Source: Actinomucor elegans | Taxonomy: Eukaryota; Mucoromycota; Mucoromycetes; Mucorales; Mucoraceae | Assembly: GCA_026027325.1 (NCBI GenBank) | Contig: JAMSLZ010000001.1 | Coordinates: forward strand, 2,480,001-2,544,000 | DNA: 64,000 nucleotides | Reading direction: 5' to 3' | In this document: positions 2,023 to 8,011 of the stretch, one piece after another | Layout of the letters: every line of letters starts with the position of its first letter | Position numbering within the stretch: the stretch's first letter is position 1 | Notes under the pieces: generated by a model | Told to the model about the DNA's origin: nothing | The model's database searches: none | The model's input: the letters and a program-made list of their open reading frames with translations, nothing else | Made by a program: the position numbers and the translations under genes

Positions 2023-5000
2023 ATGTCTTTAGCGCAATGGAGACAGTTTAACTTTTTTGATAAGCAGCAAACCTCAGATCCTGTGCAGAAAGGCAAATCA
2101 CCTGCTATATTTCAGGTAATATAACATCCTATTCACTCGCTTTTTAATTCTCATCTTGGTGTTAGAAACAAGATATATCAGTATTCGCGACAGGACGCGG
2201 GCATATTATTTTGGCAGATATCCTTTTTAATATAAAATGCTTGATCTAGCATATGTTTTATATTATCTTTAACAGTTCTTACATTCGGCAGGTAGTGTTT
2301 ATATCGTAGATCGTTCTTTCAAGACGCAAAAGTTCCTTGCTTATGACGGTGGACGCGTGACACATTTGAAGCAGCTGAAGCAAAAGAATGTGCTTGTCAC
2401 TGTGGGGGTGAGCCTTAGTTATGCTTTAGAATAACCGCCTTCATCAACTAATCAAGCGTATTATAGGAAGAAGATACAGTGTCTGGTATTCCAGTAGTAA
2501 AATTTTGGGATTTGGATGCTTTAAAGTCGAGTGCGATTGAAGTCAATGATGACATTATTGTACCTACCCTGCTTCGAACCATCAAGATTCAACATGGTGG
2601 AAAAACATATCCAGTAAAGTTAATATAGGCCATGATCAACTAGATACTCATATATCAATAGGTTTCAACATTTACTATACTAGAGAACATGTCACAACTG
2701 GCCATTGGCCTCGCTAACGGTGTCGTCATCTTGATCCGTGGTGATTTATCTAAAGACAAAACCACTAAGCAAAAAGTGATTTATGAAGGCGAAGAACCTA
2801 TTACTGGCCTCGGATTTCGTGAGCAAACCAAATCTACAATTTTGTTTATTGTCACTACCAGTCATATAATGTCTTATAATACAACTGCAGTCAAACCTAC
2901 TGTGGTAAGTAGTGTCAGATAATGTCTAACAGTATACTGTCGACTTACATATATATATATAGACAGTGTTGGATGAGCAAGGATGTGGATTAGGCTGCGC
3001 TGTCATGAACGATCAACAAGAGATGGTAGTGGGCCGCGATGAAGCCATTTACTTATATGACCCAACAGGCAGAGGACCTTGCTTCGCCTATGATACACCC
3101 AAATCTTCTTTGACTTGGTTCAAATCTAGTTATTTGGTTATTGTTTCACCTCCAGTCACAACGTCCACACAGCTCTCTAGTGGAGCGCGTGCTTCGCTCA
3201 ACTTTAATCCCAAACGCACATCGACTAATGAATTGACCAAAATTGCCATCTTTGACACAGCCAACAAGTTTGTTGCGTATGTAGGCACCTTTTTAGGCGG
3301 TATTCGTGGTATATTTTGTGAATGGAACTCCATTTGGGTTGTAGGCATGGATGGCAAGGTAAATCTTGTGATTGTTTCACTCTACATGGATTGACAGATA
3401 CTATATATATAGCTTTATCATTTGGATGAAAAAGATACACCCACCAAGTTGGAGATTCTGTTTAAATTAAATTTGTACGTGCTGGCCATCAACTTGGCTC
3501 ATATGCAAAAATATGATGATACCAGTATTGCCGAGATCTTTAAAAAATATGGTGATCATTTGTACAACAAGGGCGATTATGATGGGTCAATGGAACAGTA
3601 TATTCGAACTATTGGACAACTTGAGCCTTCTTATGTGATCCGAAAGGTACGTTTCATAAAAAAAAAAACAAGATTGCTTATACCTTGATAGTTTCTTGAC
3701 GCGCAAAGAATCTACAACTTGACAAGCTATTTGCAAGAATTGCATTCAAAAGGTTTAGCTAATGCGGATCATACTACACTTTTATTAAACTGCTACACCA
3801 AACTCAAGGACGTATCGCGTCTAGATCAGTTTATCAAGGTATAAATGGGCCTTTAATAATAGTGCTTCTCTAATTGACCTGTACAGACGGACACCGACTT
3901 GAACTTTGACTTGGAAACAGCTATCAGCGTATGCCGTCAAGCAGGCTACTTTGAGCATGCTGTCTATTTAGCCGAGAAGTTTCATGAACACAATTTGTAC
4001 CTTGACATTGTCATTGAAGACACACATCAATATGGTACTGCTTTGGAGTATATCCGTAGATTGAATTCTGGAGAGGCGGAAAAAAATCTGCAGAAGTATA
4101 GTAAAACGTTGCTTTGCCATTTACCACAAGAGACCACTGAGCTACTCATTGAACTATGCACGGGATCACTCAGTTCATCTGGAAGTAATAGCAGTAGTGA
4201 TACGGCTACGGCTAAAGCTGCACTCAACAACCTGCCATTTAGCAATTCGACTGATGCCATTGAACCTCCCATCACGAAAAGCAAACGATCAAGCCAAAAT
4301 ATACCATCACCACGCAAATTTATGCCTGCGTTTGTTGATCGTCCTGACTGTCTGACACAGTTTTTAGAAGCAATCTATGACACATTGTGGGGAAACTCCA
4401 CTAAAACATTCTCTATCTCTGAGCAAGAGGAGCGTAAAACTATTTGGAATACGCTGTTGGAGCTGTATTTGATGGAGAATACGAGACAAGTACGACAAAA
4501 GGCATTGGCGTTGCTGAAGGATGATACTGTCGCTTATGATACCAACCAAGCGCTTGTGCTTTGTCAATTGAAGCAGTTTGATGAAGGTATTGTCTATTTA
4601 TATGAAAAGACAGGAATGTATAAGGATATCTTGAGATATTGGATGGAGAAAGGCGGTACAGATCGTGTTATTGAAGGTGTTCGAAAATATGGGTAAGAAG
4701 CCATGTTTTGTTTCAAAAAAGAGATATTTACATAGCAATAGACCCAAGGATCCCTCATTATATCCAATGGTGTTGACTTATTTTAGCTCAACATCTGAAG
4801 TCATGGCAAAATCGACTCAAGAGTTATTGTCTGTCATGAAACATATTGATGAAAAGGATTTATTACCTCCTATCCAAGTAGTTCAAGCCTTGTCAAGATC
4901 CAATGTTGCGACTATTGGTTTGTTAAAAGACTATATTGGAAAAAAGATTGAACATGAGCGTAGAGAATTGAAACAGAATGAGGAATTGATTGCAAGCTAT

Positions 5001-5456
5001 CGAGAAGAAACTGAAAAGAGAAGAAAAGAGATCGAAGAGTTACAAACAAGGTGAGTCATAGAAATAGAGTTAAAGAAGGTATCACTCATCCACTGTCGAA
5101 CAGTGCTCGTATTTTCCAAGTTCAAAAATGTACCGGGTGTGAAGGTAACCTTGATCTACCTGCTATTCATTTCTTGTGCAGACATTCTTTCCATCAACGG
5201 TAAGCTCAAATAATATCAAGATATTATAAGCATACTAAATAGTGATTATACTAGTTGCCTTGGTGATAATGACCGAGAATGTCCTCAGTGTGCTATCCAG
5301 CATCGTATGATCAGCGAGATCAGGCGTACACAGGAAGCCAATGCAGATAGACATGAACTCTTCTTTGATCAATTGGATCATGAAGAAGATGGGTTCGAAG
5401 TCATTGCTGATTACTTCTCCAAGAATACCATGGCTTTTGCCAAACTTATTGATTAG
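2023..5456 (+). CDS. VPS11: Vacuolar protein sorting-associated protein 11 (HOPS/CORVET subunit, RING-H2)
   Basis: Twelve exons can be joined in one frame: 2023-2115, 2166-2217, 2283-2407, 2467-2613, 2662-2904, 2963-3358, 3413-3646, 3692-3838, 3887-4692, 4742-5050, 5104-5199 and 5255-5456, giving 949 residues, the family's usual size. The N-terminal third is a beta-propeller (ATGRGHIILADSAGSVYIVDR), the middle is clathrin-heavy-chain-like helical repeats, and a coiled segment (EERRELKQNEE-type) precedes a C-terminal RING at about residues 858-896 with the pattern CxGC..C.H..H..C..CPQC. VPS11 is the shared core subunit of HOPS and CORVET tethering complexes at vacuoles and endosomes. Intron 2 is an AT-AC intron (separate entry); the other introns are GT-AG. 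The start was chosen because exon 1 begins MSLAQWRQFNFFD, as in homologues. Confidence 0.93.
2218..2282 (+). other. U12-type AT-AC intron in VPS11
   Basis: This 65-bp intron begins ATATCCTTTTT, an exact match to the U12 5' splice-site consensus ATATCCTT. It ends TTAC after a branch-like ATCTTTAAC whose A lies about 10 nt from the 3' end. The exon before ends in a single G and the exon after starts with ATTCGG; joining them restores D-S-A-G-S-V-Y, the conserved propeller strand of VPS11. No GT donor or in-frame AG choice in this stretch gives a plausible protein. AT-AC introns are removed by the minor spliceosome, whose components are known from Rhizopus/Phycomyces-type fungi. Confidence 0.88.
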
Positions 5457-6573
5457 TTAGATTCTTAATTTTCTGATTCATAGAATCAAGTGAATATTAA
5501 ATACTGTTTGCTTTACCAAATGACGTGTTTGCTAATTGTTTGATCTGTTATGTCTATTTTTCCCAAATTTTATTATCAGTCCTCACATGAGTCGGTTAAA
5601 AGAGATATTGGGCATGATAAGTATAATTATTCAAAGTTTTCGGCATAAAAAGGTTCTAATTAGTCTTTCGCCCCTTGGATCTATCTTGTGCAATCTCTTA
5701 AACCATGATCAGCAATGTTACAGTTGCATGAAATTCATACATAATTGCTAAAGTTACTACAAATCCCATATGTACGTAGTGCACACATGTCGGATAAGAA
5801 CTGACCAACATATGATAAGATTTACGCTTGCTAATATTTATTGCTATATGACTACAGGTACATATAACAGAAATCAGGTACAGAGCATTAGAAGCATTGA
5901 TCCATAGCCGGATATCACGTAAGGATAATCAAAACACCATTCATTATTCGATTACTAAAGTTCTGCTTTGTCATAGAATAATTATAAAAGAACTATGCAA
6001 CTCTCGATTTTAACAAATCGCTTGCTTATTTGATTTACTATAAACAAATACGAATAACCTGCGCTTACCAAGCTTCAGCACTTCTTTTTGGTGTGTCTTT
6101 ATTAAAAGTGATTGTCAAATATGGAAAGAACGGTCAAAATGAGACAAACGAAAAGAAGAAAAATCAGGTTGTTTTGAATTCTGGGAGGCAAACAAAATTG
6201 TCTTATAAGGTTGTGAATAAGCGGTGTTTAATGCCTTTCAAAATCATTAAAACTATCCCGAATTTTTTTGGATCACACAGGATCAAATGTAGGACTATGA
6301 ATGATTAAACAGGCAAATGCTGAGTGTTATAATACCGTTAAATCGATCGATTACTAACCTATAAGGTCTACTAGCATAGCAACAAGAAGGCAACCAAATT
6401 TCGGATGACGGATAAATCTATCCCATCGACCCTGGTTGCCCAAAGCAACGGCTGTCATCTTTTAAAATCCGCTATGTCAGTCTTTTGGCTTGCATACAAA
6501 AGAAATGGGCCCACAAATCTCGACCTTCTCGAGCTTCTTTCTCTTTAAACAACCCCCCCTCTCCTAATCAAAC
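5457..6573. other. Intergenic region, VPS11 to COX15
   Basis: No supported gene. Short plus-strand ORFs at 5536-5751 and 6030-6308 lack any recognisable domain, splice context or compositional bias. Just upstream of COX15 (about 6515-6573) the sequence becomes pyrimidine-rich (TTTCTCTTTAAACAACCCCCCCTCTCC), a common fungal 5' leader feature. Confidence 0.5.
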
Positions 6574-8011
6574 ATGATCCGAACAGCCATTGGCAGATCA
6601 TTACAAGGCATAAGTCGTTTGGCTCGACCTTGTCAAGCTACTGCGATGAGGTCCCTGCACAATACTAGCTTTCGCCCTTCATTACTGAAAAAGCAACCAT
6701 TCTTACAATACAAACAAACGATACAATCTCGGTTCATGACTTCTACTAGCACTAGTGCCGAGGCAGCTTCAGCTGCGGCCATTGCTTCGAAACAAGTATC
6801 CAAACCCGCTGTGGCATATTGGCTTTACTTTAATGCCGGCATGGTATTTGCCATTGTCGTAGTAGGTGGATTGACACGTTTGACAGAAAGTGGATTATCA
6901 ATCACCGAGTGGAACGTGATTTCAGGCATGAAGCCACCTCGTTCTGAGGCAGAATGGATCGAAGAATTTGAAAAGTACAAGCAGTATCCTGAATACAAGC
7001 TGTAAGTTTCAAATTGTGTATTATTTGTTCAGGGCAGAGGCTTAACTATCCCTTATAGGTTGAATCGCCATATGACACTTGAAGAGTTTAAAAACATCTT
7101 TTACTGGGAATGGTCTCACCGTATGATTGGAAGATTCATTGGTGCCTCTTTCATCTTGCCTGGGTTGTATTTTGCTTCGCGTGGACACATGTCAAAACGC
7201 GTTGCCAAGCAAACCTTTGGTATTACTTGTCTTTTGGGTTTCCAGGTAAGAATCAGTCTGCGTTTTAGCGAAGTGTGTATATTGAGATTTTCAACTATAG
7301 GGTTTCATGGGTTGGTATATGGTTAAATCAGGTCTTTCAGAAGCTTTATTGAAAGAGCCTGGAGCTGTTCCTCGTGTCAGCCAATATCGTCTTACTGCTC
7401 ATTTGGCCACCGCTGTTGCCATTTATGCCAGCACCTTGTTTGTCGCATCAGACATTATCCGACAAAACAAGCTTGCCTCTGGTCAATTCTCTAGCATTTC
7501 CGCACTCAATAACCCTGTTCTCAAGCGTTTCCGTATAGCTACACATAGTCTTGGTGCCCTGATGCTCATTACTGTCTTTTCTGGCGGTTTAGTGGCTGGT
7601 CTCGATGCAGGTATGATCTATAACGAATTCCCTTTCATGGGTGAATCTATCATGCCTCCTGTCGCAGAACTCTGGAACGATCATTTCACCAAGCCCTCAG
7701 ATCAAGGTAAATGGCGTAACTTGCTGGAAAACCCTACCACCGTTCAATTTGATCATCGTACCTTGGCTGAAACTACAGCCACATTGACTACCGCCTTATG
7801 GCTGTATTCACGCAAACTGCCCTTACCTAAGAATGTACGTTTGGCCGTGAATACAATGATGGGCGCTGTTGTGGTACAGGTTACCTTGGGTATCTCGACA
7901 TTGATTTATATGGTGCCAATTGAATTGGCTGCAGCACATCAAGCAGGTGCATTGGCTTTGTTAACATCCAACTTTTGGCTGATTCATGCTCTTAAACGTG
8001 TGCCTGTTTAA
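6574..8011 (+). CDS. COX15: Heme A synthase COX15, mitochondrial
   Basis: Three exons (6574-7001, 7059-7245, 7301-8011) encode 441 residues. The first 60 or so are Arg/Ser/Gln-rich and lack acidic residues, as expected of a mitochondrial presequence. Then follow family signatures: [51 protein letters not shown] (heme-ligand His), [16 protein letters not shown] and [11 protein letters not shown], with about eight membrane segments. COX15 oxidises the C8 methyl of heme O to make heme A for cytochrome c oxidase in the inner membrane. All conserved histidines that I can recognise are present, and the length is normal for fungi. Confidence 0.95.

Follow-up and report, generated by a model that had tools for sequence, protein, structure and literature searches.

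The first report of U12-type introns in Rhizopus is said to be that of Russell in 2006. According to the text of PMC2846911, Rhizopus oryzae and Phycomyces blakesleeanus both contain such introns, of the AT-AC and of the GT-AG kind, together with minor snRNAs; the counts tabulated there, which are based on ESTs, are 1 AT-AC and 2-3 GT-AG introns for Rhizopus, and 8-9 AT-AC and 8-12 GT-AG introns for Phycomyces. For Rhizophagus irregularis, the text of PMC10639083 gives 205 predicted minor introns, all four minor snRNAs and orthologs of the 25K, 35K, 65K and 20K proteins; the legend of one figure in this survey also names Mucor lusitanicus. That minor introns are known in some Mucoromycota, as the initial annotation of the present locus stated, is in print (PMC2846911, PMC10639083).

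The intron analysed here lies in the VPS11 gene of Actinomucor elegans, within a 64,000-nt stretch of DNA (hereafter the window). Going by the text of the two papers, it joins a kind already published for Rhizopus, Phycomyces and Rhizophagus. Rhizopus and Phycomyces are related early-diverging moulds that likewise have AT-AC minor introns, but VPS11 is not named in the passages of PMC2846911 cited here, and the main text of PMC10639083 contains 0 occurrences of 'VPS11'. The latter survey classifies annotated introns with intronIC, with borders possibly shifted by ~10 bp; because its classification starts from annotated introns, an intron missing from a gene model could escape it, a consequence that we draw and that the survey text does not state. 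In the literature searched, we found no paper joining VPS11 to U12-type or minor introns, and none joining Mucorales to U12-type introns; for Mucor and minor introns, the search led to the survey PMC10639083. To these, the present analysis adds one well-supported minor intron from a mould whose genome also holds most of the machinery for it.

The VPS11 gene and its second intron

The vacuolar tethers HOPS and CORVET share VPS11 as a subunit. Judged by its sequence, the gene at 2023-5456 of the window is VPS11: Pfam recognizes PEP5_VPS11_N (422.4 bits), TPR_PEP5_VPS11 and VPS11_C in the product, with the N-terminal propeller, the clathrin-repeat and the C-terminal zinc-finger/VPS11_C domains all present. 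The five best homologs are 75-81% identical, Mucor mucedo being the closest (81%; best 120 of 2188 homologs). The gene model contains 11 introns and encodes 949 aa in a frame that is open from end to end in the spliced translation. For introns 4 and 7, the borders were chosen so that the frame stays open and the product agrees with VPS11 sequences. Intron 2 occupies 2218-2282, and the remaining ten model introns are all GT-AG (Table 1).

Table 1. Features of the VPS11 locus (window positions), and candidate minor-class introns and snRNA matches elsewhere in the genome (C, contig).
Feature	Location	Strand	Details
VPS11 gene, ATG to stop	2023..5456	+	spliced translation open throughout; Pfam families; homologs
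Exon upstream of AT-AC intron	2166..2217	+	ends ...HIILA plus first base of split Asp codon
Putative U12-type AT-AC intron, 65 nt, phase 1	2218..2282	+	motifs, frame, homologs
5' splice site ATATCCTT, then TTT	2218..2225	+	sequence; U11 pairing predicted
Branch site TTATCTTTAAC	2263..2273	+	proposed branch A = 2272, 10 nt from last intron base
3' splice site AC	2281..2282	+	sequence; frame test of joins
Exon downstream of AT-AC intron	2283..2407	+	starts with rest of Asp codon, then SAGSVYIVDR
DIS3L (RNB) AT-AC intron			branch to AC 14 nt; phase 1; Pfam match across junction
Inositol polyphosphate kinase (IPK) AT-AC intron			branch to AC 15 nt; phase 1; Pfam match just after junction
IBN_N importin-like gene AT-AC intron			branch to AC 17 nt; phase 0; Pfam match across junction
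L014, possible AT-AC intron	C1:1961267-1961319	minus	in 5' leader, directly ahead of NDUFB8-like ATG; only 8 nt from branch to AC
U11 snRNA	C23:2162383-2162547		above Rfam cut-off
U6atac snRNA	C24:547942-548079		above Rfam cut-off
U12 snRNA match	C27:195701-195847		below Rfam cut-off

The initial annotation had placed a U12-type AT-AC intron at exactly these borders, and coordinates, motifs, frame and homologs all agree with it. The donor ATATCCTT at 2218-2225, described there as the minor-spliceosome consensus, indeed fits the U12-type 5' splice site [A/G]TATCCTT. The branch-like TTATCTTTAAC, which had been put about 10 nt from the AC acceptor, matches TTTTCCTTAAC at 9 of 11 positions (the U12-type branch consensus is TTCCTTAAC), and its branch A lies exactly 10 nt from the 3' splice site; in U12-type introns this spacing is roughly 10-20 nt. 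Joining at 2218/2282 restores the VPS11 frame and, as had been claimed, a conserved propeller strand: the product, HIILADSAGSVYIVDR, has the same motif and length as intact homologs, the counterparts being HIVLADSKGNVYIVDR in Mucor mucedo and HIVLADSAGSVYIVDR in Blakeslea. Retention of the intron would instead yield HIILADILFNIKCLI and then a stop, soon after HIILADILF. A 3,311-base contig (P0002) carries an uninterrupted 1030-aa VPS11 that reads YIILADSKGNVYIVDR at the same junction; because the gene in the window has 11 introns and the P0002 frame is continuous, this contig probably derives from a relative's spliced transcript.

How much of this could be chance? On both strands of the window taken together, a single site fits the combined pattern ATATCCTTN{20,50}TTTAAC, where 0.02 would be expected; a match turned up in 2 of 100 shuffles. 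Alone, the donor word RTATCCTT is over-represented in the 64,000 nt (13 sites against 5.07 expected; none of 100 shuffles was as high). The best downstream match and the bases after it are identical at two of its sites, 46182 and 51843 (minus strand), and because of this likeness the excess may partly reflect a repeat. Within 140 nt of the other 12 sites the top branch score is 8/11, compared with 9 at VPS11; since 132 of 3000 random plus-strand windows score at least 9, the branch says little by itself. What carries the case for the VPS11 intron is the combination of donor, branch, spacing, frame and homology, and the reading frame is a stronger test than the chance of the motif. The excess of donor words would suit a reading in which the motif match is accidental and the sequence has no intron function, VPS11 being broken here or the assembly in error. 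That reading is hardly credible, as the remainder of the 949-aa frame is intact across 11 introns and numerous homolog models fail, or read DIL, at the very same codon.

Alternative joins

We tried joins with GT-AG, GC-AG, AT-AC, AT-AG and GT-AC ends, taking donors from 2170-2299 and acceptors up to 2339. From the same donor, the minor spliceosome might use the AG at 2290-2291, which lies 19 nt from the branch A; AT-AG minor introns exist, and this join also keeps the frame open, giving HIILAGSVYIVDR, three residues shorter. However, intact homologs align at the junction without a three-residue gap (a single residue is missing, in P0075 only), and a crude regular expression written for the shorter product matches none of 120 homologs (best 120 of 2188), so that we consider this outcome very improbable.

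Frame was also kept by three GT-AG joins, every one from donor 2181, and every one losing VFATGRGHIILAD, most of which is matched in intact VPS11 homologs; the earlier statement that no GT-AG alternative restores the strand thus held. U2-type AT-AC introns do exist, as noted in the text of PMC7072748, and it could be argued that the major (U2) spliceosome removes the AT-AC intron, or that another GT-AG or GC-AG intron is used in its place, the three open GT-AG joins being examples. Given that the VPS11 donor is the U12-class octamer, accompanied by a U12-class branch, and given the loss of VFATGRGHIILAD from all three products, we see very little room for either possibility. We are highly confident that 2218-2282 represents a genuine minor-class (U12-dependent) AT-AC intron of VPS11.

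The anatomy of the intron and the restoration of the frame can be read directly from the DNA; splicing in this fungus, and the order of its steps, we infer from the known pathway. Along that route, the U11 snRNP and the U11/U12 proteins would bind the ATATCCTT donor, U12 would pair with TTATCTTTAAC and bulge the branch A, and U6atac would then take the place of U11 at the donor. Splicing by U11/U12, followed by U4atac-U6atac-U5, would release the 65-nt intron, and the joined exons would restore the beginning of the VPS11 beta-propeller.

Components of the minor spliceosome

The 36.5 Mb assembly (27 contigs) was searched for the minor snRNAs with Rfam models, alongside 14 control genomes. U11 was found at 71.4 bits (Rfam cut-off 39), with a match in one of the 14 controls and none above the cut-off. 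U6atac reached 67.5 bits (cut-off 33); weak matches occurred in 8 of the 14 controls, again none above the cut-off. The U12 match scored 45.7 bits, below the cut-off of 53 (E 1.2e-6), and had no equivalent in the 14 controls. It keeps the branch-pairing stretch GAGUAAGGAUAA / UAAUGAGUAAGGAUAA; its minimum-energy fold was no better than that of shuffled sequences (z 0.22; 110 of 200 shuffles fold equally well). The 5' end of U11, AAAAAGGG, could pair with the VPS11 donor in a predicted duplex of -6.7 kcal/mol. With its branch A omitted, the VPS11 branch is predicted to pair with the genome's own U12 at -12.6 kcal/mol; a consensus-like stretch gives -7.3. In seven candidate introns this comparison was mixed, pairing with the own U12 being better in 4, worse in 2 and equal in 1, and we rejected it as proof of a species-specific match.

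U4atac was not found, either by Rfam (best match 24.2 bits, cut-off 53) or by four pattern searches of the genome; a divergent copy may have been missed by these searches. The best Rfam candidate, at C1:2204793 (E 0.73 genome-wide), owes its score mainly to a 3' AAUUUUUGGAAAA, and its 5' end is not visibly complementary, by eye, to the genome's U6atac; it was rejected as U4atac. Genome-wide patterns built as U6atac complements returned, respectively, the antisense of U6atac itself, nothing, and one site without the expected form. With up to 3 mismatches, such a pattern matched 69 sites, compared with 61 for its reversed version. A K-turn-like motif was present in none of these 69 (the U6atac antisense included), and 6 sites inspected for an Sm-like word, of which three belong to a single repeat, were set aside as unlike U4atac.

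Among the proteins, U11/U12 25K was detected as two exons (36.5 and 24.5 bits, cut-off 22.8) and in none of the 14 controls; the gene also matches the 25K chain of the human U11 snRNP (PDB 8r7n and others; E 1.4e-13, 54 bits). U11/U12 59K (PDCD7), likewise absent from the 14 controls, scored 31.2 bits (cut-off 27) in a 304-aa open frame, and 38.3 bits when the PDCD7/59K piece was searched alone. For 48K, which had been listed among the proteins to look for, the outcome was equivocal: a CHHC zinc finger of the 48K type scored 32 bits (cut-off 21.1), and one of the 14 controls, an archaeon, also passes that cut-off. Against the Protein Data Bank, GTSF1, another CHHC protein, scored better (E 1.1e-7) than the human U11 snRNP 48K chain (E 0.0058), to which the match is limited to the zinc finger. 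Because an archaeal control passes and GTSF1 outscores 48K, the sequence of this finger fits 48K but is not diagnostic of it.

Most of the machinery genes searched for are thus present. The initial annotation had argued that a live AT-AC intron implies an encoded minor spliceosome, and had named the absence of all its components as grounds for abandoning the claim. The claim survived, U11 and U6atac both being above their cut-offs. Its wider form stands for U11, U6atac, 25K and 59K, is left with a below-cut-off match for U12, and is not borne out for U4atac, which the searches did not find.

Other AT-AC introns in the genome

The pattern RTATCCTTN{20,50}CYTTAAC matched 29 sites in the genome, modestly more than the 12 obtained with its reversed version. 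When graded, 4 sites were well supported, 3 possible and 22 unsupported (L019, among the 22, was not scored). The four well-supported introns, all AT-AC and all with open joins, lie in VPS11, DIS3L, IPK and an IBN_N importin-like gene (Table 1). The possible AT-AC introns are L014, in a 5' leader, and L025 and L038, both with no Pfam match. Six of the unsupported matches (L015, L017, L022, L027, L029 and L031) were dismissed as accidental, being six copies of one dispersed repeat; its open frame, HKILAYADDTLVFLK, resembles a reverse transcriptase by its motif. The nearly identical matches L019 (C2:308-353) and L024 (C11:541767-541812) lie on short loci close to the ends of contigs and may belong to a subtelomeric repeat. 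As for GT-AG minor introns, none was convincing among the 4 G-start sites of this pattern, which says nothing against their presence in the genome.

Damaged gene models and putative donor fossils at the junctions

We then compared VPS11 homologs at the AT-AC junction, using the best 120 of 2188, a cut that favours full-length Dikarya. In this sample, the alignment of intact homologs shows a similar motif at the junction and no gap of several residues. Among 35 Mucorales, 8 are intact, 5 are broken and 22 begin downstream; among 19 Glomeromycotina, 4 are intact (the start of one, P0048, is doubtful), 11 broken and 4 truncated. Thus 27/35 Mucorales and 15/19 Glomeromycotina are broken or truncated there. 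Other Mucoromycotina and allies have 4 of 7 intact and 3 broken, and Mortierellomycotina 24 of 30 intact and 6 broken. Basidiobolus (1/1), chytrids (3/3) and unnamed homologs (7/7) are all intact, as are Dikarya (18/18, a figure biased by the best-120 selection). These counts suggest that many public Mucoromycota VPS11 models lack part of the first propeller region.

Under a second criterion, the AT-AC junction ranks lowest of the 11, being fine in 9/35 Mucorales and 4/19 Glomeromycotina. Several GT-AG junctions are poor too, namely those of introns 3, 4, 10 and 11 among Mucorales and of introns 1 and 3 among Glomeromycotina, and truncation alone is therefore no proof of a shared AT-AC intron. 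The junction of intron 1 is nearly as poor (fine in 11/35 Mucorales, with 22 uncovered through the same truncations), that of intron 3 is fine in 15/35 Mucorales (18 uncovered) and broken in 13/19 Glomeromycotina, and those of introns 10 and 11 are, respectively, broken in 11/35 and fine in 16/35 Mucorales.

More specific traces came from the donor itself. Left unspliced, ATATCCTT translates as DIL after G and as NIL after A. DIL stands exactly at the VPS11 junction in 5 of the best 120 homologs of 2188 (Acaulospora P0034, Racocetra P0040, Gigaspora P0051, Actinomortierella P0086 and P0088). In DIS3L (best 120 of 2551 homologs), NIL stands exactly at the AT-AC junction in 7 (Benjaminiella P0123, Apophysomyces P0142 and P0147, Circinella P0149, Mucor velutinosus P0161, Jimgerdemannia P0199, Endogone P0200); the models of P0161, P0199 and P0200 stop soon past NIL, as a retained intron would cause. 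An eighth NIL match, in P0204, is far from the junction and was not counted. At the DIS3L junction, 9/36 Mucorales are broken and two more have NIL with length unchanged; 2/6 other Mucoromycotina and allies and 1/2 Basidiobolus are broken, as against 0/37 Mortierellomycotina and 0/39 remaining homologs. From these protein sequences there is a strong case that DIL and NIL at the junctions are translated, unspliced minor-intron donors.

The VPS11 AT-AC intron is probably old: at the same codon, its unspliced donor appears to persist in models of 3 species of Glomeromycotina and in those of Actinomortierella. Model damage together with DIL and NIL suggests old, shared introns overlooked by annotation. 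We consider it likely that the VPS11 intron dates from the Mucoromycota ancestor or earlier and was kept in many species, as one of a set, DIS3L being a second, that gene finders miss; the scars would be models cut short or with an exon skipped, and fossils reading DIL or NIL(F), from G or A followed by ATATCCTT(TT). Against this wider proposal, the broken models could be ordinary annotation noise, silent on any shared intron, and both the poor GT-AG junctions of introns 1, 3, 10 and 11 and the preference of the best-120 selection for full-length Dikarya lend this some weight. We hold it unlikely, since the AT-AC junction is the poorest of 11 in Mucorales and in Glomeromycotina alike, and noise would hardly place DIL exactly at the VPS11 junction (5/120) and NIL exactly at that of DIS3L (7/120).

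If the proposal of old, overlooked introns is true, such fossils offer a route to hidden minor introns from protein sequences alone. Surveys that start from annotated introns may then undercount minor introns in these fungi, which bears on the speed of minor-intron loss and on which fungi retain them. P0086 and P0088 carry DIL, although 24/30 Mortierellomycotina VPS11 models are intact; other members of that group may have lost the AT-AC intron or changed it to GT-AG, or their models may treat it correctly.

Downstream of VPS11, the window contains the first part of a gene for a COX15-type haem A synthase (6568-7005; Pfam 80.5 bits).
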